Assembly (NCBI RefSeq): GCF_013283785.1
Contig: NZ_JABCPZ010000034.1
Span: 1 to 64,000 of the forward strand
Direction of reading: 5' to 3'
Origin: Nonomuraea antri
GTDB lineage: Bacteria > Actinomycetota > Actinomycetes > Streptosporangiales > Streptosporangiaceae
DNA: 64,000 nt
Position 1 is the first letter of the stretch; each line of letters starts with the position of its first letter. A program made the translations under genes and the position numbers. A model generated the notes under the pieces. It had not been told where the DNA came from. It was given only the letters and a program-made list of their open reading frames with translations, and ran no database searches. Positions 17,938-36,702 of the stretch are shown here, one piece after another.

Positions 17938-17990
17938 CAGGCTTGATCAGGTTTGACGGAGATCCGAGATCAGGGTTTCGTCCTCGGGAA
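17938..17990 (+). mobile_element. Terminal remnant of an IS3-family element
   Basis: The sequence GGCTTGATCAGGTTTGACGG and the following bases to CCGAGATCAGGG match the right terminal region of the IS3-family element that interrupts cas1 (inverted copy ending at 32917), with scattered mismatches for about 50 bp. No transposase reading frame remains. It marks an old insertion or deletion event between the ESX cassette and the MazG-like gene. Confidence 0.6.
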
Positions 17991-21952: not shown

Positions 21953-23246
21953 AGCCGGGGAGCACACCTTGAAGGGGACGAACTCGCGGTTGCGATTGGG
22001 ACCATCCCCGCGTGCGCGGGGAGCAAGCCGCCGGCCTGATCGACCCGCGCGCCCCCAAGGGACCATCCCCGCGTGCGCGGGGAGCACAAGGGCGCGGAGA
22101 AGACCACGATCCCGTGCGAGGGACCATCCCCGCGTGCGCGGGGAGCACCAGTCCGCGTTGGCTCTTGTGCCGGAGCCCGAAGGACCATCCCCGCGTGCGC
22201 GGGGAGCACGGTGCGGGTGTCGGTCATTAGACGGTCCTGACGGGACCATCCCCGCGTGCGCGGGGAGCACCCGTCCGTGGTGAAGAAGAACACGCCGGGC
22301 TCGGGACCATCCCCGCGTGCGCGGGGAGCACGGCGCGGCGGCGGTCGAGTTCGGCGAGGTGCCGGGACCATCCCCGCGTGCGCGGGGAGCACAGGCGGAC
22401 CGGCCGGGCGACCCTGATCACACTGGGACCATCCCCGCGTGCGCGGGGAGCACGGATGGATCTACACCGAGCGCGGCATGGGATCGGGGACCATCCCCGC
22501 GTGCGCGGGGAGCACACCCGGTAGGCGTACCCCTCCTCCACGTACACGGGACCATCCCCGCGTGCGCGGGGAGCACACCGGCGAGGTGACCCTGCTGCGC
22601 TGGACGTCGGGACCATCCCCGCGTGCGCGGGGAGCACGATCCTGTGGCGCGCGGCAAGGCGATGTACATGGGACCATCCCCGCGTGCGCGGGGAGCACCA
22701 GTTGATCTCAGGAAAGTGTCACAGCCCGCTAGGACCATCCCCGCGTGCGCGGGGAGCACCCAGCCCCCTGTCATTCGGTGGCGCCGACGGCGGGACCATC
22801 CCCGCGTGCGCGGGGAGCACCGGGTTCGGGCGTGGAAGCTGCCCTACGACGTGGGACCATCCCCGCGTGCGCGGGGAGCACATGGCGTTGTCCAGCGTGG
22901 TGATGAGGACCTGGGGACCATCCCCGCGTGCGCGGGGAGCACGTCGCCGTGGTGCGCGCCCTGCTGGACTTGCTGGGACCATCCCCGCGTGCGCGGGGAG
23001 CACCCCGTACAGACTTTTCCCCTGGTGGAGCGGGGGGGACCATCCCCGCGTGCGCGGGGAGCACGACGGCGGCCAGGCCCTCGGGGCTGAGTTTGCGGGA
23101 CCATCCCCGCGTGCGCGGGGAGCACAACACCGCCGCTCAGGTGGCGGAGCTGGCCAAGGGACCATCCCCGCGTGCGCGGGGAGCACGCGAGCGGGGAGGC
23201 CCGGCGCGCGCTGCGGGGGGACCATCCCCGCGTGCGCGGGGAGCAC
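21953..23246 (-). CRISPR. CRISPR array 1, type I-E, 21 repeats
   Basis: Twenty-one 29-bp repeats lie at an exact 61-bp period from 21998 to 23218, with 32-bp spacers. In transcribed orientation (minus strand) each begins GTGCTCCCCG and ends GGGGATGGTCCC, with the CCCCGCGcaCGCGGGG hairpin of type I-E. A degenerate partial repeat (to 21965) marks the leader-distal left end. The leader is on the right, next to cas3. All spacers are different from one another by eye. Confidence 0.97.
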
Positions 23247-23315
23247 TCTCCCTGACCTGCGACGTTGTCAGCGTCTGGGCCTGAAAATGAGCACTTTCAC
23301 AGAAAAGGACATGGC
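23247..23315 (-). promoter_or_regulatory. Leader of CRISPR array 1
   Basis: Abuts the last repeat. In transcribed orientation it ends GCAGGTCAGGGAGA before the first repeat and carries GAAAGTGCTCATTTTCA further upstream. The same blocks precede array 2. It should contain the pre-crRNA promoter and the Cas1-Cas2 integration signals. Confidence 0.7.
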
Positions 23316-23440
23316 TGGACATTTCGGTTATCAAGTTGACTATCTAGTCGTTCCAGGCTGCAGTACCTAGGAGTGTTGGGCAACCCGGCCCTGCTCTCCA
23401 GGGGCCGGCCGACTCTCGTTGGAGCTTTGTTGCCGAAAAG

Positions 23441-26395
23441 ATGGCAACGCAGCGAGTCTCATGCACTTTAATAGCTCTCGTGCTCAACGAAGAGTCGCAA
23501 CCCGCCGCATTCGTTGATGGTTTGTCCGTATATGCCCGTACTGTCTGGGCGAAGCATGATCGGGACACCGATGGGTGGTTGCCGTTGTGGCGGCACTTCG
23601 CTGACAGCGGCGCAGTGGCGGGGCTCCTCTGGGACCGATGGCTGCCATTACAGGTTAAACGAGTAATCGCCGCAGGACTTCCCGACGGTTTGAAAGACGG
23701 TCGTCGACTGGCGATATGGCTGGCGACCATTCACGACATCGGCAAGGCCAGTCCGGCTTTTGCGTGTCAGGTGGAATCGCTCGCCGACGCGATGCGAGCG
23801 GCGGGTTTGGAAATGCCGCCCCATAAAGCATTCCTGGATCGGAAACTAGGTCCGCATGGTCTCGTCGGTCAGGTGCTCCTGCAAGCATGGCTGATCGAGC
23901 GGTTCGGCTGGTCACGGTCTGAGACGTTGCAGTTGGGTGTCATCATCGGGGGTCATCACGGGGTTCCGCCGACGGCCTCGGACATCAAGGCGCTGAATGA
24001 CCACCCAGACCTCGTACGGACCGCGGAGTGTGCTTCTCTGTGGCGGGACGTGCAGTGGGAACTCTTGGACCGCTGCGCAGAAGCGTGCGAGGTGAGTGCA
24101 GCCCTGGTCGGCTGGCGGGAAATACGACTCTCGCAGCCCGCCCAAGCACTGCTGACCGGCCTCGTCATCGTGGCCGATTGGATCGCCAGTAATCCGGACC
24201 TGTTTCCGTACTTCCCCGACGCCGAGCACGTCAGCGACCGAGACAGGGTGGAGTCGGCGTGGCGCGGCTTGGACCTGCCGAGTCCGTGGCAAGCATCCGA
24301 ACCGAAGGGCTCTGTGCAGGAGGTCTTCGAGTCACGGTTCCGGTTGCCGGTCGGAAGTCGTATCCGACCCGTGCAAGAGAGTGCGGTGCAACTGGCTCGG
24401 AGCATGCTGACGCCCGGGCTGCTCATAGTCGAGGCGCCCATGGGAGAGGGAAAGACGGAAGCGGCACTGGCTGCGGCCGAAGTGTTCGCTGCGAGGTCTG
24501 GCGCTGGTGGGTGTTTCATCGCCCTGCCCACCATGGCCACGGGCAACGCGATGTTTCCACGGATGCTGGAATGGTTGAAGCGCGTTCCGGACCTGCAGCC
24601 GGCCCCGGGAAGGCGGTCAGTTCTGCTGGCGCACTCCAAGGCTGCGCTCAACGACGACTTCGCCGCGTTGATGCGGGCCGGCAGTCGAAACGTGCGGGGT
24701 GTCGAACTGGACGGTGAAGCCGGTCGATGGCGGCCAAATGCCGACCAGTCGGTGGCGCCGGCCGAACTCGTCGCGCACCAGTGGCTCCGCGGACGTAAGA
24801 AGGCGATGCTCTCGTCGTTCGTCGTTGGAACGATTGATCAGCTTCTGTTCATGGGGTTGAAGAGTCGCCATCTCGCGCTGCGCCACCTCGCATTGGCGGG
24901 CAAGGTCGTCGTCATCGACGAGGCACACGCCTACGACACCTACATGAACTCCTACCTCGATCGAGTGTTGTCGTGGCTGGGCTCGTACCGGGTACCGGTC
25001 GTGGTCCTGTCGGCGACGCTTCCGGCCATGCGCCGCCGCGAGTTGGCCAAGGCGTATGCAAGCAAGGGGGCGGATGCCGATCTCGACGCGGTGGCGGAGG
25101 CCCGAGGGTATCCACTTCTCACGGCGGTCGAGCCGGACGGCAGGATTCTGCCTGAGACGCCCGCGGCATCAGGCCGCGCTGTTCGCGTCCATTTAGATCG
25201 CCTGAGCGATGATCTGCCCAGCATGGGAGACCGGCTTAACCGGGAGTTGGCAGACGGAGGATGCGCGCTCGTCGTTCGTAATACCGTAGATCGTGTCCTG
25301 GAGGCTGCGGCATATTTGCGTGGCTTGTTCGGCAGCGAGAATGTCACCGTGGCACATGCCCGTTTCGTGGATATCGACCGTGCCGACAAAGATGCAGATC
25401 TTTTGAACCGCTTCGGACCTCCCGAAAAAAGTGGAGTCCGTCGGCCTGCCGGTCGTCATATCGTCGTGGCGAGCTCCGTGGCGGAGCAATCCCTGGACAT
25501 CGACTTCGACTTATTGGTTTCCGACCTCTGTCCCGTGGACCTTCTCCTACAGCGGATGGGACGGCTTCACCGGCACGTACGCGGCCTGAATCAGAGCGAT
25601 CGCCCGAAGAAGCTCCAGACAGCGCGTTGCCTGCTCACGGGTGCGGATTGGGATGTGACACCGCCCAAGCCGGTGAGGGGCTCCACGCTGATCTATCGCG
25701 ATCACGCCCTGCTGAGATCGGCGGCAGTCCTCGAACCGTTCCTGTCCGGCGAAGCCGAGAACGGGCACGTCATCCGGTTGCCGGAGGACATCAGCCCTCT
25801 GGTTCAGGCCGCCTACGGCAGCGGTGCGGTGGGGCCTGACGAGTGGCAGGACGAGATGGCCAAGGCGGCGGCTGCTCAGGAACTGCATCAGGCCAGACAG
25901 GAAGAGGCCGCGCAGGACTTTCAGATCAAGGATGTCGGCCGGGCCGGTCGCTCGCTGCTCGGCTGGATCGATGCCGGTGTAGGAGACGCGGACGACACGC
26001 GACGAGGCCACGCCCAGGTGCGTGACAGCCGCGAGACGCTCGAAGTGCTTGTGGTGCAACGCCGGGCCGATGGCACCTTGGCGACCTTGCCGAACCTGTC
26101 CAGACGGCGCGGCGGGTTGGAGCTGCCGACGGACGTCGTCCCGGAGTCGCGCCTCGCCAGGATCGTCGCAGGTTGCGGGCTGCGCCTGCCCTACCACTTC
26201 TCCTTCCCCGCCGTCCTGGACAAGGCCATCGACGAGTTGGAGCGCCACTACATCCCCGCCTGGCAGGCCAAGGAGAGCTACTGGCTGGCCGGCGAACTGA
26301 TCCTCGTCCTTGACGAGAATTGTCGTACCTCGCTGGCAGGCTACGACCTGCGCTACACGTCCACGGACGGTCTGGAGGTGTCTCGTGCCCAGTGA
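23441..26395 (+). CDS. cas3: CRISPR-associated nuclease-helicase Cas3 (type I-E)
   Basis: The 984-residue protein has an N-terminal HD nuclease domain (ATIHDIGKAS with H98-D99, later GGHHG) and an SF2 helicase: Walker A APMGEGKTEAA near 333-343, VVIDEAHAYD (DEAH box at ~493-496), VVLSATLPA and a C-terminal domain with VASSVAEQSLDIDFD and RMGRLHRH (motif VI). It degrades target DNA recruited by Cascade. The ATG at 23441 is used; a TTG near 23522 (LSVYAR) is a possible later start. The stop overlaps cas8e by 11 nt. Confidence 0.95.
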   Translation: MATQRVSCTLIALVLNEESQPAAFVDGLSVYARTVWAKHDRDTDGWLPLWRHFADSGAVAGLLWDRWLPLQVKRVIAAGLPDGLKDGRRLAIWLATIHDIGKASPAFACQVESLADAMRAAGLEMPPHKAFLDRKLGPHGLVGQVLLQAWLIERFGWSRSETLQLGVIIGGHHGVPPTASDIKALNDHPDLVRTAECASLWRDVQWELLDRCAEACEVSAALVGWREIRLSQPAQALLTGLVIVADWIASNPDLFPYFPDAEHVSDRDRVESAWRGLDLPSPWQASEPKGSVQEVFESRFRLPVGSRIRPVQESAVQLARSMLTPGLLIVEAPMGEGKTEAALAAAEVFAARSGAGGCFIALPTMATGNAMFPRMLEWLKRVPDLQPAPGRRSVLLAHSKAALNDDFAALMRAGSRNVRGVELDGEAGRWRPNADQSVAPAELVAHQWLRGRKKAMLSSFVVGTIDQLLFMGLKSRHLALRHLALAGKVVVIDEAHAYDTYMNSYLDRVLSWLGSYRVPVVVLSATLPAMRRRELAKAYASKGADADLDAVAEARGYPLLTAVEPDGRILPETPAASGRAVRVHLDRLSDDLPSMGDRLNRELADGGCALVVRNTVDRVLEAAAYLRGLFGSENVTVAHARFVDIDRADKDADLLNRFGPPEKSGVRRPAGRHIVVASSVAEQSLDIDFDLLVSDLCPVDLLLQRMGRLHRHVRGLNQSDRPKKLQTARCLLTGADWDVTPPKPVRGSTLIYRDHALLRSAAVLEPFLSGEAENGHVIRLPEDISPLVQAAYGSGAVGPDEWQDEMAKAAAAQELHQARQEEAAQDFQIKDVGRAGRSLLGWIDAGVGDADDTRRGHAQVRDSRETLEVLVVQRRADGTLATLPNLSRRRGGLELPTDVVPESRLARIVAGCGLRLPYHFSFPAVLDKAIDELERHYIPAWQAKESYWLAGELILVLDENCRTSLAGYDLRYTSTDGLEVSRAQ

Positions 26396-28079
26396 GGAGC
26401 CCACTGCGGCCTCGTTCGACCTGACCCGGCAGCCATGGCTGCCGGTCCAGCGCCGCGACGGCAGCGAGGACGAGCTGTCACTTCGCGAAGTGTTCGCGCA
26501 GGCGGACAACGTGCGACGGCTGGTAGGCGACGTGCCGACCCAGGAGTTCGCGCTGCTGCGGCTCCTTCTGGCCATCCTGCACGACGCTGTCGACGGGCCC
26601 GCGGAACTCGCCGACTGGCAGGAACTGTGGGACGACGGGTTGCCCATCGAACGCATCACCAACTACCTGGACGAGCATCGCGACCGATTCGATCTGCTCC
26701 ATCCCAGCCAGCCCTTCTACCAAACGCCAGAGCTGCGGACAGCGAAAGGCGAGGTGAACGCCCTGGACCGGATCGTCGCCGATGTGCCGAACGGCCTTCC
26801 GTTCTTCACCATGCGTGGACGCGGAGCAAACCGTCTCACCTTCCCGGAGGCGGCTCGCTGGCTGGTGCACGCGCACGCCTTCGACACCTCCGGTATCAAG
26901 ACGGGCGTCCTCGATGACCCCAGGGTGAAGGGCGGACGGGCGTACCCGCAGGGTGTGGCATGGGCCGGGAACCTGGGCGGCGTCTTCGCCGAAGGAGAGA
27001 CGCTGAGACAGACGTTGCTCCTCAACCTGATCGCGTTCGACACGGACAATCTCCGTACCAAGCCGGATCAGGACCGGCCGGCCTGGCGACGCCCGCCGGA
27101 CAAGCCAGGCGAAACCAATGTGCTGGAGCTGAGCCGCAGGCCAGCCGGCGTCAGAGACCTCTACACCTGGCAGTCCCGCCGGGTACGGCTCTTCCACGAC
27201 GGCCAGGCCGTCACGGGAGTGATCCTCACCTACGGCGATCCGCTGACTCCAGGTAACAAACATCAGCATGAGCCGATGACGGCTTGGCGACGCAGTCCGG
27301 TTCAGGAGAAGAAGCTCGGGCTCGCCCAGGTCTACCTGCCCCGTGAGCATGACGTCAGCCGCAGCGCCTGGAGAGGTTTGGGGGCCCTGGTCGCCGGTCG
27401 TGTGGCTGGTGCCGAGCAGCGTGCTGAAGCTGCACGCATCGTCCGCCCTCGGATCCTTGACTGGGTCGCGCGCCTCACTGTCGAAGGTGACCTGCCGACC
27501 GGCTACCTCATCCGGGCGCACCTGATCGGCGCCCGATACGGGACCCAGCAATCCGTCATCGACGAGATCGTGGACGACTCTGTCGCCATCCCCGTAGTGC
27601 TGCTCCATGGTCGGGATCAGCCGCTGGGGATGGCGGCGATCGATGCGGTCTCCGACGCGGAAAGCGCCGTCACAACCCTCGGAGACCTGGCGGCCGACCT
27701 GGCCCGGGCCGGCGGCGACGAGGCGGAGTCTCGGAAGGAGATGGCACGCCACCGAGGATTCGCCATGCTGGATGGAGCGTTCCGCACCTGGCTGGCCGCC
27801 ATAAGGCCTGAGGACGATGCCAAGGAACGCAGAGCGGCATGGCAGCGGGAGGCGCACGAGATCATCAGCCGTCTTGGGAACGAGTTGCTCCGTGAGGCAG
27901 GGGATGCGGCCTGGGAGGGGCGGGTGATCGAGACAAGGAAGGGTCAGAGTCTGTGGCTGACCGCCTCCCACGCCGATCTGCTCTTCCGCGCTCGGTTGCG
28001 GTCCGCACTGCCGACAGTGGTGCCGAAAGAACCTGAACCCCTTCCGGCGAGCACCGAGGCCATGGAGGCCACATCATGA
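26385..28079 (+). CDS. cas8e: Cascade large subunit Cas8e (Cse1/CasA)
   Basis: Start GTG at 26385, 5 nt after GGAGGTG and inside the end of cas3. The 564-residue protein begins MPSEEPTAASFDLTRQPWLP, the typical FDL..QPWLPV Cse1 opening. It contains PFYQTPELRTAKGEVN, WLVHAHAFDTSGIKTG and the C-terminal four-helix bundle region. Cas8e recognises the PAM and recruits Cas3. It ends in an ATGA overlap with cse2. Confidence 0.93.
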   Translation: MPSEEPTAASFDLTRQPWLPVQRRDGSEDELSLREVFAQADNVRRLVGDVPTQEFALLRLLLAILHDAVDGPAELADWQELWDDGLPIERITNYLDEHRDRFDLLHPSQPFYQTPELRTAKGEVNALDRIVADVPNGLPFFTMRGRGANRLTFPEAARWLVHAHAFDTSGIKTGVLDDPRVKGGRAYPQGVAWAGNLGGVFAEGETLRQTLLLNLIAFDTDNLRTKPDQDRPAWRRPPDKPGETNVLELSRRPAGVRDLYTWQSRRVRLFHDGQAVTGVILTYGDPLTPGNKHQHEPMTAWRRSPVQEKKLGLAQVYLPREHDVSRSAWRGLGALVAGRVAGAEQRAEAARIVRPRILDWVARLTVEGDLPTGYLIRAHLIGARYGTQQSVIDEIVDDSVAIPVVLLHGRDQPLGMAAIDAVSDAESAVTTLGDLAADLARAGGDEAESRKEMARHRGFAMLDGAFRTWLAAIRPEDDAKERRAAWQREAHEIISRLGNELLREAGDAAWEGRVIETRKGQSLWLTASHADLLFRARLRSALPTVVPKEPEPLPASTEAMEATS

Positions 28080-28732
28080 CGACCGCATCTCCATCACAGA
28101 CGGCGACTGCGCCGCGTCCGGTCCAAGACCTCGTCGGCGAGGCGGCTTCCACCTATGTCAGCGCCTTGCAGAGGGGCTACCGGGCGGACACCAGCGCCGC
28201 CGTCGCCGCATTGGCGCAGCTGAGACGAGGAGCCGGGAAGCTGCCCGAAGAGGTGCCCGAGCTCTGGGGCATGGCGGGGACGGAACAGCTCTACGGCGAA
28301 CAGTCGCTGTCGGAGCGGGAGGCGCTCAAGGCCGAGTTCGCGTTGTTCTCGGCCATCACCCTGTACGCCCTCCACCAGCAGTCCAAACCCGGCCAGGACA
28401 TGCATCAGACGGGAACGGAGTTGGGTACCGCTGTGCGCCGGCTCATGCCCAGCGCGACGCTCGACGAGCCGATCCGCCGCCGCTTCGTCCGTCTGGGCAC
28501 CGCGACCACGCCGAAGGTGCTCACCGAACGCCTCCGCGAAGTCGTCATCCTGCTGCGCAACGCCTCGATTGCGCTCGACTACGGGATCCTGTCCCGGCAG
28601 CTGTACCAGGCGCAGGACCCCGATGGCATGCGGCAGGTGCGGCAGCGCTGGGGCGGCAGTTTCCACTCCTACCGTCCTGCCGCTCCACGAGCCGATGCGG
28701 ACCCGGCAGCTACCCCCGACAAGGACACCTGA
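28076..28732 (+). CDS. cse2: Cascade small subunit Cse2 (CasB, Cas11e)
   Basis: The 218-residue mostly helical protein contains DTSAAVAALAQLRRGAGKLP and the Cse2-typical IRRRFVRLGTATT plus RLREVVILLRNASIALDYGI. Two copies line the Cascade belly and stabilise the displaced strand. It overlaps cas8e by 4 nt and cas7e by 1 nt (TGATG). Confidence 0.92.
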   Translation: MTTASPSQTATAPRPVQDLVGEAASTYVSALQRGYRADTSAAVAALAQLRRGAGKLPEEVPELWGMAGTEQLYGEQSLSEREALKAEFALFSAITLYALHQQSKPGQDMHQTGTELGTAVRRLMPSATLDEPIRRRFVRLGTATTPKVLTERLREVVILLRNASIALDYGILSRQLYQAQDPDGMRQVRQRWGGSFHSYRPAAPRADADPAATPDKDT

Positions 28733-29925
28733 TGACTCGGACCATCCTCGAAGTCCACGCGCTGCAGACCGTCCCTCCGAGCTGCTTGAACCGCGACGAC
28801 ACCGGGACGCCCAAGACGGCGACGTACGGTGGCGTGCGCCGGGCCCGGGTATCGAGCCAGGCGTGGAAGCGAGCGACCCGGCGGGGCTTCCAAGGGCTCC
28901 TGGATCCGAGCGAGCTCGGCGTGCGAACCCGGCGGGTGGCGGAACTGCTCGCCGAACGCATCCGCAAACTGGACGGTTCGATCGAGCAGGCCGATGCGTG
29001 GTCGCTCGCGGCGGAGACCGTTCAAACCGCTACAGGGTCAAAGATCGAGGTCCCGAAGAGAGGTCGTAATGACGCGGCTGCGGGTGCCGCGGCTCCTGAA
29101 TCGAAGTACCTCATGTTCCTGAGCGCTCATCAGCTCGATGGTCTGGCAGAGCTCGCGGTCAAGGCTCACGGTTCGGGCAGCAAGGACTACTTCAAGGACA
29201 AGGCCGTCAAGGACCAGGCCAAGCGGATCGCGAACACGCACCACTCCGTGGACATCGCACTCTTCGGCCGGATGATCGCGGACGGAGCGGACATCAACGT
29301 CGATGCTGCGGCCCAGGTGGCGCACTCGATCAGCGTCCATCGGGTGGACAACGAGTCCGATTACTACACGGCGGTCGACGACTACAAGGAACGCGAGGAC
29401 GACGACCTGGGCGCCGGCATGATCGGCACGGTCGAGTTCAACTCCGCCACCCTCTATCGCTACGCCGCGGTGGACGTCGACCTGCTCCGCCGCAACCTCG
29501 GTGCCGGACTCCGAGACGACGAGCCGGTCACTGAACCCGTCCGCAGGGCGGTGGAAGCGTTCGTTCAGTGCTTCCTCACATCGCTGCCCACAGGGAAGAT
29601 CAACACCTTCGGTAACCACACCCTGCCCGACGCCGTCGTCGTGAAGCTACGAAGCGTACGGCCCGTCAACCTCGTGGCGGCATTCGAGGAGCCCTGCCGG
29701 GCCGATCCGGAGACGGGCGGCCACATGAAGCAGGCGACCGAGGCGCTCGTCTCCTATCTCAGCGACGTCGAGACCGCGTACGGCATCGGAGACAGCGATC
29801 CCACGTGGGTTCTGCGGGTGGGCAAGAGCACCGAAGCCCTGACCAGGCTCGGCTCCAGCATGCCCATGCCCGATCTGATCGCCGCCGTGGGCGCGGAAGT
29901 CGCACGGAGGCAGGGCGAGGCATGA
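28732..29925 (+). CDS. cas7e: Cascade backbone Cas7e (Cse4/CasC)
   Basis: The 397-residue protein starts MTRTILEVHALQTVPPSCLN and carries RDDTGTPKTATYGGVRRARV-type text plus SSQAWKRATR, hallmarks of Cas7e. Later it has NTHHSVDIALFGRM, AAQVAHSISVH and GTVEFNSATLYRYAA. Six copies form the crRNA-binding backbone. It ends in a 4-nt overlap with cas5e. Confidence 0.95.
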   Translation: MTRTILEVHALQTVPPSCLNRDDTGTPKTATYGGVRRARVSSQAWKRATRRGFQGLLDPSELGVRTRRVAELLAERIRKLDGSIEQADAWSLAAETVQTATGSKIEVPKRGRNDAAAGAAAPESKYLMFLSAHQLDGLAELAVKAHGSGSKDYFKDKAVKDQAKRIANTHHSVDIALFGRMIADGADINVDAAAQVAHSISVHRVDNESDYYTAVDDYKEREDDDLGAGMIGTVEFNSATLYRYAAVDVDLLRRNLGAGLRDDEPVTEPVRRAVEAFVQCFLTSLPTGKINTFGNHTLPDAVVVKLRSVRPVNLVAAFEEPCRADPETGGHMKQATEALVSYLSDVETAYGIGDSDPTWVLRVGKSTEALTRLGSSMPMPDLIAAVGAEVARRQGEA

Positions 29926-30623
29926 GCGTCCTGCTGTTGCAGCTCGCTGGACCGCTTCAGTCCTGGGGATCGACTTCGCGCTTCGCCCGCCGGTCCACAG
30001 AAGCTGCGCCGACCAAGAGCGGCGTGATCGGGTTGCTGGCGGCCGCCCTCGGGCGAGAGCGCTCGGACGACCTCGACGACCTGGCGGCCATGCGCTTCGG
30101 CGTCCGAGTGGATCAGCCGGGCACGATGCTGCGCGACTTCCACACCGCCCACCACTTCGTCACCGGCGAAGCCGCGCCCGTGTCGGAGCGGTTCTATCTG
30201 GCGGATGCGGTGTTCGTGGCCGGGGTCGAAGGCGACGACACGCTCATCGACATGCTCCGCTTGGCGCTGCATGCGCCGGTCTTCCTGCCATACCTGGGAC
30301 GACGCTCTTGCCCGCCGTCCCGGCCGGTCTATCTCGGAGTTCGAGAGAACGGCCTGGTGGAGGCTCTGCGCCGGGAGCCGTGGCGCGCTGCTCGCTGGTA
30401 CCAGCGACGGCGGCGCAACGAGCACCAGGTCAAGCTCGAAATCCTTGTGGAAGCTGTCGAGGAGGACGGGCCGGTGGACAGCTTGCGCGACCAGCCGGTG
30501 AGCTTCGACCCCCTGCACCGCCAGTACCGGCTTCGTGGTGTCCACCGGCCCCGCCCTGCCACTGTGACCAATCCCGCGGCCGGCCCCGCCCACGATCCCA
30601 TCGCCGCTCTCGGGGGCGCATGA
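29922..30623 (+). CDS. cas5e: Cascade subunit Cas5e (CasD)
   Basis: Start ATG at 29922, in the ATGA overlap with cas7e. The 233-residue protein opens MSVLLLQLAGPLQSWGSTSR, the standard Cas5e N-terminus, and contains TKSGVIGLLAAALG, the TxHH-like DFHTAHHFVTG and PVFLPYLGRRSCPPSRP. It caps the 5' handle of the crRNA. The stop overlaps the cas6e start. Confidence 0.95.
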   Translation: MSVLLLQLAGPLQSWGSTSRFARRSTEAAPTKSGVIGLLAAALGRERSDDLDDLAAMRFGVRVDQPGTMLRDFHTAHHFVTGEAAPVSERFYLADAVFVAGVEGDDTLIDMLRLALHAPVFLPYLGRRSCPPSRPVYLGVRENGLVEALRREPWRAARWYQRRRRNEHQVKLEILVEAVEEDGPVDSLRDQPVSFDPLHRQYRLRGVHRPRPATVTNPAAGPAHDPIAALGGA

Positions 30624-31309
30624 TGTTCCTGACCAGGTTCCGCTTCAACACCGCGCGGCTCGGCGCCCGACGCCTGCTGTCCTCGCCACAGCGGTTGCAC
30701 GCCGCGGTCATGTTTGCGTTCGCAGAGCCCCTGCCTCAGGACGGCGGCTCCCGGGTTCTCTGGCGGATCGACCGCAACAGCCGCTCCGAGACGTTTCTCT
30801 ACCTCGTAAGCCCAGACAAACCGGACCTCACCCATCTGGTGGAGGAGGCCGGCTGGCCGGAGACCGGGCGATGGCAGACCCATGACTACAGTCCCCTGCT
30901 GTCCCGGCTGGCCAAGGGAGACGTCTGGTCGTTCCGCCTGACTGCGAACCCTGTTCACAGCATTCGCAGAAACGCCGATGAACCGACCAAACTCACAGCG
31001 CACATCGGACAGCGTCATCAGATGCACTGGCTTCTCCAACGACAGGAGAAGGCGGGCTTCGCGGTCCTCGAAAAGCCGCAGGAGCAACGCCTGCACGATG
31101 AACTCGATCAGTACGAACTCGTCGTGCGCGATCGCAGGCAACTCGAATTCGCCAAGACCGGCCACCGAAAGCCCGTCACCCTCGTCACCGTCACCTTCGA
31201 CGGCCGCCTGCAGGTGACCGACCCTGACGCCTTGCGCCATACCCTCACCCGCGGGCTGGGCAAGGCGAAGGCCTACGGCTGCGGTCTGATGACTCTCGCT
31301 GAGGCGTGA
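30620..31309 (+). CDS. cas6e: crRNA-processing endoribonuclease Cas6e (CasE)
   Basis: Start ATG at 30620 in the cas5e overlap. The 229-residue protein begins MMFLTRFRFNTARLGARRLL with the conserved LHAAVMFAF segment, which provides the catalytic His in Cas6e. It has WSFRLTANPVHSI, and near the C-terminus the Gly-rich ALRHTLTRGLGKAKAYGCGL, the GxGKAKAYGCGLLTL Cas6 signature. It cuts the repeat hairpin of the pre-crRNA and stays bound. cas1 begins 3 nt after its stop. Confidence 0.95.
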   Translation: MMFLTRFRFNTARLGARRLLSSPQRLHAAVMFAFAEPLPQDGGSRVLWRIDRNSRSETFLYLVSPDKPDLTHLVEEAGWPETGRWQTHDYSPLLSRLAKGDVWSFRLTANPVHSIRRNADEPTKLTAHIGQRHQMHWLLQRQEKAGFAVLEKPQEQRLHDELDQYELVVRDRRQLEFAKTGHRKPVTLVTVTFDGRLQVTDPDALRHTLTRGLGKAKAYGCGLMTLAEA

Positions 31310-31676
31310 AAGATGGCCACCGTAGGCCAGCGAGGCCAGTCCTCGCCTCACGAACTCGTGCGAATGGGAGACCGCATCTCCTTCATCTATCTGGAACGCT
31401 GCGTCCTGCACAGAGAAGACAATGCGATCACGGCCGAGGACGCCCACGGCACCACTCACATCCCGGCCGCGACGATCGGCACCCTGCTCCTGGGCCCAGG
31501 TACCCGAGTGACTCATCAGGCGATGAGCCTGCTCGGCGACAGCGGAGCCGGCGTGGTCTGGGTAGGTGAGCAGGGCGTTCGCTTCTACTCCGGCGGGAGA
31601 TCGCTCAATCGTTCGTCGTCCCTCGTGGAGGCGCAGTGAGCTTGCTCCGCTTTGACGGACACCATCGTTGTGGTGG

Positions 31677-32549
31677 TCAGGCCGCGCGGGCGGCCTCGTA
31701 GTCGGCAGGGCTACGGTAGCCCAGGCTGCTGTGCAGCCGGTGCAGGTTGTACCAGCTTTCGACGAACTCGAAGATCGCTCTGCGGGCGGCAGCTCGGGTG
31801 GGCCAGGGCCGGGTATCGAGGAGTTCGCCCTTGATGGTGGCGAAGAACGACTCGGCCAGCGCGTTGTCCCAGCACTGCCCGGTCCGTCCGACCGACAACC
31901 GCACGCCGAGCCGTGTGGCCAGCTCGGCGTAGGCGGCGCTGGTGTATTGACAGCCGCGATCGGAGTGGAAGATCACCGGCCCGGCCGGGCGGCGGCGGGC
32001 GCAGGCCTGCTGCAGGGCTTCGGCGACCAGGCCGGTACGCAGATGATCGGCCGTCGCCCAGCCGACCACCCGCCGGGAGGCGATGTCGATGACGGTGGCC
32101 AGATACAGCCAGCCCTCCTCGGTGGCGATGTAGGTGATATCGCCGCACCAGCGCGTATCGATAGCCGCCGCGTCCGGTGTGAAGTCACGCTCGATCAGGT
32201 CCGGCCGAAGGCTCGCCTGCGGGTCGGGGACCGTGGTCTGCCGCCGGCGTCGCTGATACCGTCCGGCCAGGCCCAGCGCGCGCATCAGCCGGGCCACCCG
32301 CCGCCGTCCGCACCGCTGCCCGTCCTGCCGCAACTGCGCGTGCACCCGCGGCACCCCGTAGCTGTCGCGTGAGCGCGCGTGCACCACGGCGATCCGCTCG
32401 GCCAGTTCGGCATCGCGCACCGCACGCGGACCGGGCACTGCGGTACGGCGGGCGTAGAAGGCGGCACGGGAGACTCCCAGCAACTCACACGCGCGCTTGA
32501 CGCTGTGACCACCCTGCTTCTCCGCCTCGATGAACGGGTGCACGCTCAC
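31677..32549 (-). CDS. IS3-family transposase OrfB (DDE catalytic subunit)
   Basis: GTG start at 32549, overlapping the orfA stop (GTGA). The 290-residue protein has an N-terminal HTH_21-like region (LLGVSRAAFYARR), RVARLMRALGLAG and the rve integrase core: DTRWCGDITYIATEEGW (D1), VIFHSDRGCQYTS (D2) and CWDNALAESFFATIKGELL (E). It ends with the usual NLHRLHSSLGYRSPADYE. It appears complete. Confidence 0.95.
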   Translation of the reverse strand: MSVHPFIEAEKQGGHSVKRACELLGVSRAAFYARRTAVPGPRAVRDAELAERIAVVHARSRDSYGVPRVHAQLRQDGQRCGRRRVARLMRALGLAGRYQRRRRQTTVPDPQASLRPDLIERDFTPDAAAIDTRWCGDITYIATEEGWLYLATVIDIASRRVVGWATADHLRTGLVAEALQQACARRRPAGPVIFHSDRGCQYTSAAYAELATRLGVRLSVGRTGQCWDNALAESFFATIKGELLDTRPWPTRAAARRAIFEFVESWYNLHRLHSSLGYRSPADYEAARAA

Positions 32550-32863
32550 CGGGTCTCCCTCACGAAGAAAGCCGTCGCCCGCTTGAGAACGTCGACGTCC
32601 TCGCGCAGCCGCCGGTTCTCCCGCCGCAACGCCGCCAGCTCCTCCCTCTCACTGCTGGTCAGCCCATCCCGATGCCCCTCGTCGACCTCGGCCTGGCGCA
32701 CCCATTGCCGCACCGCCGTCTCGGTCAGGTCGAAGTCCTTGGCCACCTGGCCGACCGAGCGGTCACCACGTCGGCACAGCTCGACGATCTCGGCCTTGAA
32801 CTCCGGTGTGAACGAGCGGCGAGGACGCGGCTTCTTCTTCCCCATGCTGTCCATCATGGGCAT
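32546..32863 (-). CDS. IS3-family transposase OrfA
   Basis: I chose the ATG at 32863 (MPMMDSMGKKKPRPRRSF); a longer frame upstream is possible. The ~105-residue protein has an HTH_Tnp_1 domain (FTPEFKAEIVELCRRGD, VGQVAKDFDLTETAVRQWVR) and a C-terminal leucine zipper (ELAALRRENRRLREDVDVLK). It overlaps orfB by 4 nt, so OrfB may be made by coupling as well as by the usual -1 frameshift. Confidence 0.9.
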   Translation of the reverse strand: MPMMDSMGKKKPRPRRSFTPEFKAEIVELCRRGDRSVGQVAKDFDLTETAVRQWVRQAEVDEGHRDGLTSSEREELAALRRENRRLREDVDVLKRATAFFVRETR

Positions 32864-33549
32864 CCTTTCGGGGGCGAACCCCTGATCTCGGATGTCCGTC
32901 AAACCGGATCAAGCCCACAGGCGGCCAAGTGGGCCAACCGCCGAACCCGGCTTGAGGTAGCTCGGGAGATGTACCGCATGCGTTTTCCGGGAGAGGATCC
33001 GTCAGCGTTGACCCGGCACGAGCTCCTCGGGAGAGAGGGACGCCGGGTCAAGGAGCACTACCGCAAGGAAGCCGACCGCGTCGGGCTTCCGTGGAACGGC
33101 AGGGTCTACATCCCTGGCGACTTCAACGCGGGCGACCCCCTGAATCAGGCGATCACGGCTGCGGCACAGTGCATGTACGGCGTGGCTCAGACCACGGTGG
33201 CGGCGCTCGGTTGCTCGCCTGGGCTGGGCTTCATTCACTCTGGGCATGAGCTCGCGTTCGTCCTCGACATCGCAGACCTCTACAAGACTGAAATTGCCAT
33301 CCCGGTCGCCTTTGAAGAAGCGGCGCACAGTCCGGATGACGTCGGATCACGAACCCGTCGTGCCGTCCGCGACAGGATCAACAAGGTCGGTCTACTCAAG
33401 CGGTGCGTGGGCGACATCAAACGCCTGCTTCTGACCGGCGATACCGCTGAGACAGGCGCCGTCGACGAGGACGTCGACCGAGTGCTCCTACAGAGCGATC
33501 ACGGCATCGAGCTGGAGTCAGGGCGCAACTACGCGGATGAGGTGCCCTG

Positions 33550-33906
33550 GTGACCGTCATCGTGCTCACCCGATGCCCGGTCGGTCTGCGCGGGTTCCTG
33601 ACCCGCTGGCTCATGGAGATCTCTCCCGGCGTGTTCATCGGGGGACCGTCAGCGCGTATTCGAGAGCAACTCTGGCTGCAGGTCCAGCAGTACGCCGACA
33701 CCGGCAGGGCACTTCTTGCGTACACCACGGACAACGAGCAGGGGTTCGCCTTCGAGACACATGATCACAAGTGGCACCCCATCGACCACGAGGGACTCAT
33801 CCTGCTGCGCCGGCCGAAGGAGCGGCAGGAGCGGACCTCATCGGAAGCGCCTCGTAACTGGAGCAAGGCGGCGAAGCGCCGTCGATACGGGAGAGCTGAT
33901 CAATAG
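33550..33906 (+). CDS. cas2: CRISPR adaptation protein Cas2e
   Basis: GTG start at 33550, overlapping the cas1 stop. The 118-residue protein begins MTVIVLTRCPVGLRGFLTRW and has the Cas2e pattern EISPGVFIGGPSARIREQLW and QQYADTGRALLAYTTDNEQG, followed by a basic tail. It pairs with Cas1 in spacer integration. Being distal to the interrupted cas1, it may suffer polarity as well as lacking a partner. The array begins ~45 bp downstream. Confidence 0.93.
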   Translation: MTVIVLTRCPVGLRGFLTRWLMEISPGVFIGGPSARIREQLWLQVQQYADTGRALLAYTTDNEQGFAFETHDHKWHPIDHEGLILLRRPKERQERTSSEAPRNWSKAAKRRRYGRADQ

Positions 33907-33951: not shown

Positions 33952-36486
33952 CCGGGTGCTCCTTGTGTGCGCGGGAGCACTTTGGCCAGGAGTGCAGCTC
34001 GCAAGACGGAACGGGACCATCCCCGTGTGCGGGGGAGCGCAGGACAGCGGGACAAGCTGCGCGACCTGGCCGAGGGACCATCCCCACGTGCGCGGGGAGC
34101 ACACGGCCGGTACGAGGGCGCGGGGCCGTCCTTGGGGACCATCCCCGCGTGCGCGGGGAGCACTCCGCCATCGGCAAACCCTCATCCAGCAGCACCGGAC
34201 CATCCCCGCGTGCGCGGGGAGCATCCCGGAAGCTCGACCACGTCACCCCGCACGTAGGGACCATCCCCGCGTGCGCGGGGAGCACATGGAGAACCTGTCC
34301 CTGGGCGTGGCGGGCGCGGGACCATCCCCGCGTGCGCGGGGAGCACCGTGCCGGGCGGGTATTTCCCGTCTTGGATGCGGGACCATCCCCGCATGCGCGG
34401 GGAGCACGAGGCGGTGAAGGTGTGCGAGACCCGGCGCGCGGGACCATCCCCGCGTGCGCGGGGAGCACGACCACGAGGACACCCCCGGCAAGGTGCACGA
34501 GGGACCATCCCGGCGTGCGCGGGGAGCACCCAGAGAAGAGCCTCTTCAGGTACTCGTACGCGGGGCCATCCCGCGTGCGCGGGGAGCACACCCGGCTGAG
34601 CTCGTGCTCAGCCGGGTCAACGGGACCATCCCCGCGTGCGCGGGGAGCACGGCGTGCCCGAGGAGCGCGGCGTGATCGAAGTGGGACCATCCCCGCGTGC
34701 GCGGGGAGCACCTGCGGGGCGGCCGGTCGACGGAGCATCCGGAGGGACCATCCCCGCGTGTGCGGGGAGCACACCCGGCTGAGCTCGTGCTCAGCCGGGT
34801 CAACGGGACCATCCCCGCGTGCGCGGGGAGCACACGACCTGTCGTTTCGGGCACGCGATCACCGTAGGACCATCCCCGCGTGCGCGGGGAGCACACCTCG
34901 TCCTGCAGCTCCAGCCGACGCCACTCGGGACCATCCCCGCGTGCGCGGGGAGCACTGAGCTCGACGTGAAGCCAGATGCCAAGCCGACCAGGAGGGACCA
35001 TCCCCGCGTGCGCGGGGAGCACTGCGGAAACTCTCGCAGGCGATCCAGGGTCAGGGGACCATCCCCGCGTGCGCGGGGAGCACAGTCCGCGATGCGCGCC
35101 ATCATCCGCTCCACTGGGACCATCCCCGCGTGCGCGGGGAGCACTCCGACATAGGTGTGGTTCAGCACCCGCCCGGAGGACCATCCCCGCGTGCGCGGGG
35201 AGCACCGTCAGCGGCAAACTCAGGCGCTTCCAGGCATGGGACCATCCCCGCGTGCGCGGGGAGCACAACCCCAGGTTGAAGCCCTGCAAGCGCGCATCAG
35301 GACCATCCCCGCGTGCGCGGGGAGCACGTCTCCCGCAGCGCCACGCTGGACATGTACGGGGGACCATCCCCGCGTGCGCGGGGAGCACGAATAGGCGTCC
35401 GCACCCTCGCGCGTTTCCAGGGGACCATCCCCGCGTGCGCGGGGAGCACCGCTCAGGGCCATGGTGAACAGCTCGGGGATCGGGACCATCCCCGCGTGCG
35501 CGGGGAGCACGGGGCTCGTCTATACCAAGCGGAGTCTCGGCAGGGACCATCCCCGCGTGCGCGGGGAGCACAGCGATGCCGACGGCGACGGGGAGGAGGG
35601 CGCGGGACCATCCCCGCGTGCGCGGGGAGCACCCGGTCGACCCGACGACGCTCATGGACACGCTGGGACCATCCCCGCGTGCGCGGGGAGCACAGCGTTC
35701 TAACAACCCCCTTAAGCAAGTCCCTGGGACCATCCCCGCGTGCGCGGGGAGCACGCGGTGATGTCCACTGCGGCGCCGCCCAGGCTGGGACCATCCCCGC
35801 GTGCGCGGGGAGCACTCGCTCACGGTGCGCGGGCGGTCGTGCAGGTCGGGACCATCCCCGCGTGCGCGGGGAGCACTGCTGGTCCTCGCGCGGCATCTCG
35901 TGCTGGTAGGGACCATCCCCGCGTGCGCGGGGAGCACTTCTCCGCTTCGGGCACGGCCGGTAGCGCCACGGGACCATCCCCGCGTGCGCGGGGAGCACCT
36001 CTCCTTCAGCTCCCGCAGCGCGATCCGCGAGGGACCATCCCCGCGTGCGCGGGGAGCACACGCGGACCGAGGCTCTGCGCAGCGAGGTGCGGGGACCATC
36101 CCCGCGTGCGCGGGGAGCACGATTCAATTTCGAGCACGGACCCCTTGCTGAGGGGACCATCCCCGCGTGCGCGGGGAGCACACGGCCACCACGGGCACGA
36201 CCACCCCGGCCACGGGACCATCCCCGCGTGCGCGGGGAGCACACGCGCTCGATGTCGGGGAGTACGTCGCGAGCGGGACCATCCCCGCGTGCGCGGGGAG
36301 CACATCGTCCTGCCGCCCTTCGGGGCGTTCATCGCGGGACCATCCCCGCGTGCGCGGGGAGCACGGCTTCACGCTCTGACTTCAGCTCTGCCTGAAGGGA
36401 CCATCCCCGCGTGCGCGGGGAGCACTTCCCCCCGTTCCCCCAGACGCCGCATGATCGGGGACCATCCCCGCGTGCGCGGGGAGCAC
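33952..36486 (-). CRISPR. CRISPR array 2, type I-E, 41 repeats
   Basis: Forty-one 29-bp repeats lie between 34013 and 36486 with the same consensus and orientation as array 1. A further degenerate repeat is at 33952-33980. The left, leader-distal part is decayed: variants at 34013, 34074, 34196, 34501 and a 1-bp deletion at 34562. Spacers are 32 bp except one of 38 bp (34956-34993). The spacer at 34590-34621 recurs exactly at 34773-34804. Confidence 0.97.
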
Positions 36487-36555
36487 TCTCGCCGACCTGC
36501 ATGTTTACTGGGAGCCGAGGCCGTTTTGAAGCACTTTCGTGAAATCGGACATTGC
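36487..36555 (-). promoter_or_regulatory. Leader of CRISPR array 2
   Basis: Next to the right-most repeat. In transcribed orientation it ends GCAGGTCGGCGAGA and has GAAAGTGCTTC about 35 nt further upstream, matching the leader of array 1. This fixes the direction of transcription (right to left) and the newest spacers at the right end. Confidence 0.7.
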
Positions 36556-36702
36556 GGGCTCCCCGGGGCCGGATGCGGAGGCGGCGGCTTAGCACATCTG
36601 AGTGTGGCACGCTCCGAGTGGGATGCAGGCTGTCTACGGTGCCATCGATAAATGATCATGTCACGCGATGGGCAAGCTTCTCGGCAGCGCGCAGGAAGCG
36701 CG

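Follow-up and report, generated by a model that had tools for sequence, protein, structure and literature searches.

An IS3-family element splits cas1e in the type I-E CRISPR-Cas locus of Nonomuraea antri

The type I-E CRISPR-Cas locus of Nonomuraea antri lies in the window, by which we mean the whole stretch of 64,000 nucleotides analysed here, and its cas1e gene is divided by an element of the IS3 family. We consider it very probable that a single such element recently entered codon 108 of cas1e with duplication of CAG, that no whole Cas1 is made and no new spacers are added as a result, and that Cascade and Cas3 may continue to use the old ones. A missing Cas1 would deprive the cell of the Cas1-Cas2 integrase, and the existing spacers would still be transcribed and used by Cascade and Cas3 if the interference genes are expressed. 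Since the transposition removes an integrase subunit, spacer acquisition should be off; judged from sequence, its loss is likely, and working interference is what we infer. In Escherichia coli, acquisition needs both Cas1 and Cas2, according to the available part of PMC4762764.

The inserted element (31637..32917) is 1281 bp long, has TG...CA ends and is bordered by imperfect terminal repeats (31637..31661 on the plus strand and 32893..32917 on the minus strand), which are identical at 22 of 25 positions. Copies of the CAG target duplication flank it at 31634..31636 and 32918..32920. Both of its genes are on the minus strand. The upstream gene, orfA (32546..32902), encodes a helix-turn-helix protein of 118 aa (PF01527, 51.6 bits), which matches the N-terminal part of the IS3 transposase model NF033516, while orfB (31677..32549), overlapping it by 4 bp, encodes an rve/DDE transposase of 290 aa (PF00665, 94 bits; NF033516, 335 bits with a cut-off of 160 bits). 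The gene pair, the rve transposase, the TG...CA ends and the 3-bp duplication are shared with actinomycete IS3-family elements, among which this one is ordinary; the sole notable point is cas1 as its target. An IS on a Streptomyces plasmid aligns to bases 38–1318 of the query window:31600-32960, which is exactly 31637–32917. As its first and last bases are the same, the borders of the element are defined independently of the reading frame. Identity to plasmid relatives was 79–82% over 94–95% of the query among the eight matches listed. The N. antri genome contains two more full-length copies, both 88% identical and flanked by 3-bp duplications (GTT and AGT). A short stretch of the window at 17940–17986 is 89% identical to one end of the element and is possibly a remnant.

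The 5′ piece of cas1e (31313..31636, plus strand) comprises 108 codons, ends in one of the CAG copies and, when read onwards, meets a stop within the IS. It matches positions 2–98 of the Cas1e model TIGR03638 with 109 bits, which is under the cut-off. The 3′ piece (32921..33553, plus strand) matches positions 97–268 with 216 bits, so that the two pieces follow each other in model order. Joining the flanks with a single CAG yields an uninterrupted frame of 957 bp, made up of 318 codons and the terminal stop. Compared to the Cas1 of Nonomuraea longispora, the 5′ piece is 94% and the 3′ piece 85% identical, and relatives carry an uninterrupted cas1 at the same place. The dN/dS values against N. 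longispora, strain G033, N. aridisoli and N. pusilla range from 0.03 to 0.06 for the 5′ piece and from 0.05 to 0.10 for the 3′ piece; pairs without the window gave 0.03–0.08 and 0.05–0.14 for the corresponding parts. With dS at about 0.5–1.7, close to saturation, these comparisons have low power, and a brief relaxed period would stay invisible in them. Neither half contains an internal stop and dN/dS is not above that of the relatives, and for these reasons the insertion looks recent. The original prediction, which had been made from the letters alone, thus holds in its core: an apparently recent IS3-family element with 25-bp terminal repeats and CAG on both sides cuts cas1, and its removal restores the gene.

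The genes of the locus follow the order cas3-cse1-cse2-cas7e-cas5e-cas6e-cas1e-cas2e as assigned with NCBIfam models, with cas1e in two pieces, so that the intact Cas1e of a type I-E system is missing. All genes are on the plus strand. In cas3 (23441..26395) we found the HD, GxGKT, DEAH, SAT and QRxGRxHR sequences, which we take to be the motifs of Cas3. It is followed by cse1 or casA (26388..28079; TIGR02547, 252 bits), cse2 or casB (28076..28732; TIGR02548, 113 bits), cas7e (28732..29925; TIGR01869, 288 bits), cas5e (29919..30623; TIGR01868, 157 bits) and cas6e (30620..31309; TIGR01907, 77 bits). The GTG start of cas2e (33550..33906; TIGR01873, 61.5 bits, cut-off 33.15) overlaps the cas1 stop, and because the IS in addition stands between cas2 and the operon promoter, cas2 may be poorly expressed. 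All seven genes other than cas1 are free of internal stops and each scores above the threshold of one or more appropriate NCBIfam models, which agrees with the earlier claim that Cascade, Cas3, Cas6e and Cas2e are open. Among named relatives, Nonomuraea aridisoli has the most similar Cas7e (89%). The locus does not belong to the I-E variant in which tnsB/tnsC replace cas1-cas2: the inserted genes are IS3 orfA and orfB, and both cas1 pieces and cas2 are present.

Two CRISPR arrays with 29-nt repeats and 32-nt spacers flank the operon. Both are read on the minus strand and have their leaders at the high-coordinate ends. Array 1 (21998..23246) has 21 repeats and its leader end adjoins cas3; the leader-proximal 70 nt (23247..23316, minus strand) contain a motif common to the leaders of relatives. 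Array 2 (34013..36486) has 41 repeats, the last of them with 8 mismatches. Its degenerate end adjoins cas2 and its leader is at the far end, where the proximal 70 nt (36487..36556, minus strand) are close to the leader of a third large array on contig 29 (L186, 154–3057). The latter has 48 repeats and two spacer duplications, and the contig to which the window belongs has a few degenerate repeats at its end. The predicted total of two arrays with 62 full repeats is therefore right for the window, apart from the degenerate last repeat of array 2, and too low for the genome. An identical palindromic, hairpin-like spacer occurs twice in array 2, at 34590–34621 and 34773–34804, three spacers apart. 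Phage records yielded no spacer match for either array; a few weak matches span repeats (MT451982.1, 34638–34795; JX006077.1, 15684–15904) and may reflect repeat-like phage sequence.

The orientation of array 2 differs from that in relatives. In all nine cas2-bearing relatives compared (L042, L046, L048, L052, L054, L055, L056, L147 and L161), the first array past cas2 runs on the plus strand and has its leader adjacent to that gene, whereas array 2 points away from the operon. Four of the nine (L046, L054, L056 and L161) have an extra minus-strand array farther out. By its direction, array 2 corresponds to this outer array, and the plus-strand leader and array are absent here. The anatomy of the locus suggests that this absence may be a second, separate change on the adaptation side.

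Spacer 7 of array 1, counted from the leader (22821–22852), matches its own genome at 32 of 32 positions at two sites, on contigs 236 and 156. Both sites fall within aptamers of c-di-AMP riboswitches (RF00379, 84.8 bits), and two further riboswitches match the spacer with 2 and 4 mismatches. Coexistence of such perfect self-matches with open interference genes could mean that the locus as a whole has already fallen silent or begun to decay, the IS in cas1 being just one visible sign of it, and that interference is dead as well. Of 82 distinct loci examined, four (L047, L058, L060 and L144) have losses on the interference side and on the adaptation side alike. However, the interference genes in the window are all open and over their cut-offs, with dN/dS as low as in relatives, and at the PAM place the self-matches carry GCC, not AAN, which PMC12231136, in the part available, gives as the PAM for Streptomyces avermitilis. 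The self-match fits both inactive interference and a non-permissive PAM. We regard a locus that is silent as a whole as rather unlikely, and prefer the reading in which adaptation alone has been lost.

The insertion is known from a draft assembly alone (580 contigs; estimated completeness 100, estimated contamination 5.56%), in which it could have arisen as an artefact, or only some cells of the culture could carry it. Against this stand the exact ends of the element and the 3-bp duplication within a contig of 64.4 kb. A near-identical copy of the IS that could cause a misjoin was not found elsewhere in the assembly either, the best others being 88% identical. An artefact or a mixed population is accordingly very improbable. 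No other Cas1 was detected in the whole assembly at E ≤ 10: TIGR03638 yielded the two cas1 pieces and two noise matches of about 11 bits, and TIGR00287 yielded the two pieces only. Pfam PF01867 gave no match at all, missing even the known pieces (20.3 and 16.0 bits, cut-off 22.3), and since it is a weak test for this reason, we rely on the two TIGR models. The draft thus lacks an intact Cas1, as an interference-only locus would, and the second intact gene that could have overturned the original prediction was not found there; a Cas1 on unassembled DNA of the strain is possible. Continued acquisition by a Cas1 acting in trans or by a split or chimeric Cas1 is hardly credible, because no other Cas1 was found in the assembly and the potential chimeric frame of 293 aa (32672..33553, plus strand), which runs from the antisense strand of the IS into the C-terminal part of Cas1, lacks the N-terminal domain, even though it reaches the Cas1e cut-off alone (216.2 vs 215.6 bits) and the 3′ piece retains E, H and D positions that we take to be metal ligands.

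To place the cas1e insertion in a wider context, related genomes were surveyed. Cas7e was found in 18 of 54 genomes of the genus, at 20 places. The adjacent cas1e is full-length at 16 of these, split over two contigs at one and broken at three, namely in the window, in N. montanisoli (G021) and at the second locus of strain G015. In N. montanisoli the cas1 match ends after codon 65 and is followed directly by the first CRISPR repeat, so that an array of 13 repeats (L045, 12749–13510) continues straight from the stump; cas3 to cas6 are intact, and the locus has neither cas2 nor a leader. The second locus of G015 (L144, 9521–9911) consists at this end of an 82-codon cas1 stump, the last 14 leader bases, identical to the end of the leader in N. 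pusilla, and three repeats. It lacks cas3; a further I-E locus in this genome is whole. Strain G297 (L210, 11817–12482) has a cas1 with in-frame stops, matched to residue 186 and then followed by repeats, with cas2 not detected. The mirror image of adaptation loss was found in strain G013 (L165, 8979–9793), in which cas6 is preserved only from codon 37 on and borders directly on a minus-strand array; the interference genes upstream are absent, and cas1 and cas2 are whole. N. aridisoli (G030, L041) had appeared as a further case of a broken cas1; the gene continues in frame across two contigs whose ends overlap by 8 bases, and it was therefore counted as an assembly break rather than a gene break.

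In 298 genomes of the family, 127 exceed the cut-off for Cas7e and 111 that for Cas1e. Both proteins pass in 110 genomes, Cas7e only in 17, spanning 10 genera, and Cas1e only in one (17 vs 1, two-sided exact test 1.4e-4, uncorrected for kinship). The count is conservative, since the genome of the window is among the 110 because its 3′ piece alone passes, as are some other broken cases. Another Cas1 exceeds the TIGR00287 cut-off in 7 of the 17 Cas7e-only genomes, where it might serve in trans; the other ten have none over it, one of them with a fragment. Cas7e neighbourhoods were taken for 15 of the 17 (the stretch of G281 held no cas7, and G103 was left out). Within these, cas1 was undetected in 13, reduced to a stump in N. 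montanisoli and internally deleted in G307, which is also the only one with a detectable cas2. Read by eye, repeats follow shortly past cas6 in six of the 13 (G185, G238, G239, G286, G305 and G316; cas7 of G238 is damaged), and no repeats lie within about 420 bases of cas6 in the other seven. With respect to tnsB/tnsC, no transposase domain was found in 10 upstream ORFs of seven loci; the ORFs downstream of cas6 were read by eye only.

A gene-by-gene count covered 82 distinct loci, comprising 80 named loci (two of them identical), L161, L144 and the window. Adaptation alone is broken in six (L045, L092, L106, L116, L119 and the window), interference alone in two (L049 and L059) and both in the four given above; eight are cut short by the end of a contig, and no break was scored in the remaining 62. 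Because the window and L144 had been added as loci known to be broken, they can be set aside; without them the numbers are five, two and three. Three adaptation-only cases (L106, L116 and L119) are single cas1 frameshifts in draft genomes. These, and a frameshift seen by eye in L112, which passed the 85% rule of the count, may be sequencing errors. Eleven divergent loci of the genus (L150–L159 and L166) were left out because the references are too distant; their Cas1e is full-length. Thermobifida fusca NBRC 14071 (L060) was considered as an interference-only locus on account of a cas1 stump beside its array, and was rejected as decayed since cas3 and cas6 are damaged.

Taken together, these loci allow a tentative proposal, which we consider possible rather than probable: in the family of the host, type I-E systems could repeatedly end up without adaptation but with interference, an outcome that may be favoured. 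Deletions would often bring it about by joining the array directly to cas6 or to what is left of cas1. The array would then form the end of the cas operon, fixed in content, without a leader and perhaps transcribed from the cas promoter, and the IS described here would represent the youngest stage. Two explanations remain for why adaptation is lost first. One is selection, in that a frozen memory avoids self-derived spacers; the other is geometry, in that cas1-cas2 adjoin the array and deletions starting there reach them first.

Cas loci hit by an IS have precedents, and so have type I-E loci that lack adaptation. The available part of PMC12231136 summarises work on Actinomycetota, Streptomyces among them, whose type I-E loci have no cas1-cas2 (Faure et al. 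2019; Shmakov et al. 2018). As in N. antri, these loci combine interference-type genes and an array without a working adaptation pair; as described there, however, the genes are absent, with tnsB/tnsC instead or with cas3 also missing, whereas here cas1 is interrupted and cas2 and cas3 stay. For the cas locus of Mycobacterium lacus, the accessible text of PMC10333696 describes an IS3-family transposase sequence upstream of cas1. It is thus likewise an actinomycete cas locus with such a sequence, but cas1 and cas2 are kept and the disturbance lies upstream, while in N. antri cas1 itself is cut. The I-E system of S. avermitilis has the same order of eight genes and, unlike here, an intact cas1; in the part of PMC4762764 at hand, its interference is stronger than its adaptation and its array II is split by transposase genes. 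In the open-licence literature, we found neither an IS inside a Nonomuraea cas1e nor an array that continues directly from a truncated cas1.

According to the same part of PMC4762764, adaptation in S. avermitilis is weak although cas1 and cas2 are both present, which suggests that its loss may cost actinomycetes little. For N. antri, the cell probably retains its old immunity and no longer learns. Acquisition should be off in this natural strain while the interference genes are whole, so that the cost and use of old spacers can be addressed without engineering. In the family of the host, it is more often the adaptation gene than the interference gene that is absent. This suggests that the insertion in cas1 is not a lone accident, and makes the question of why the memory is frozen testable across pairs of relatives.
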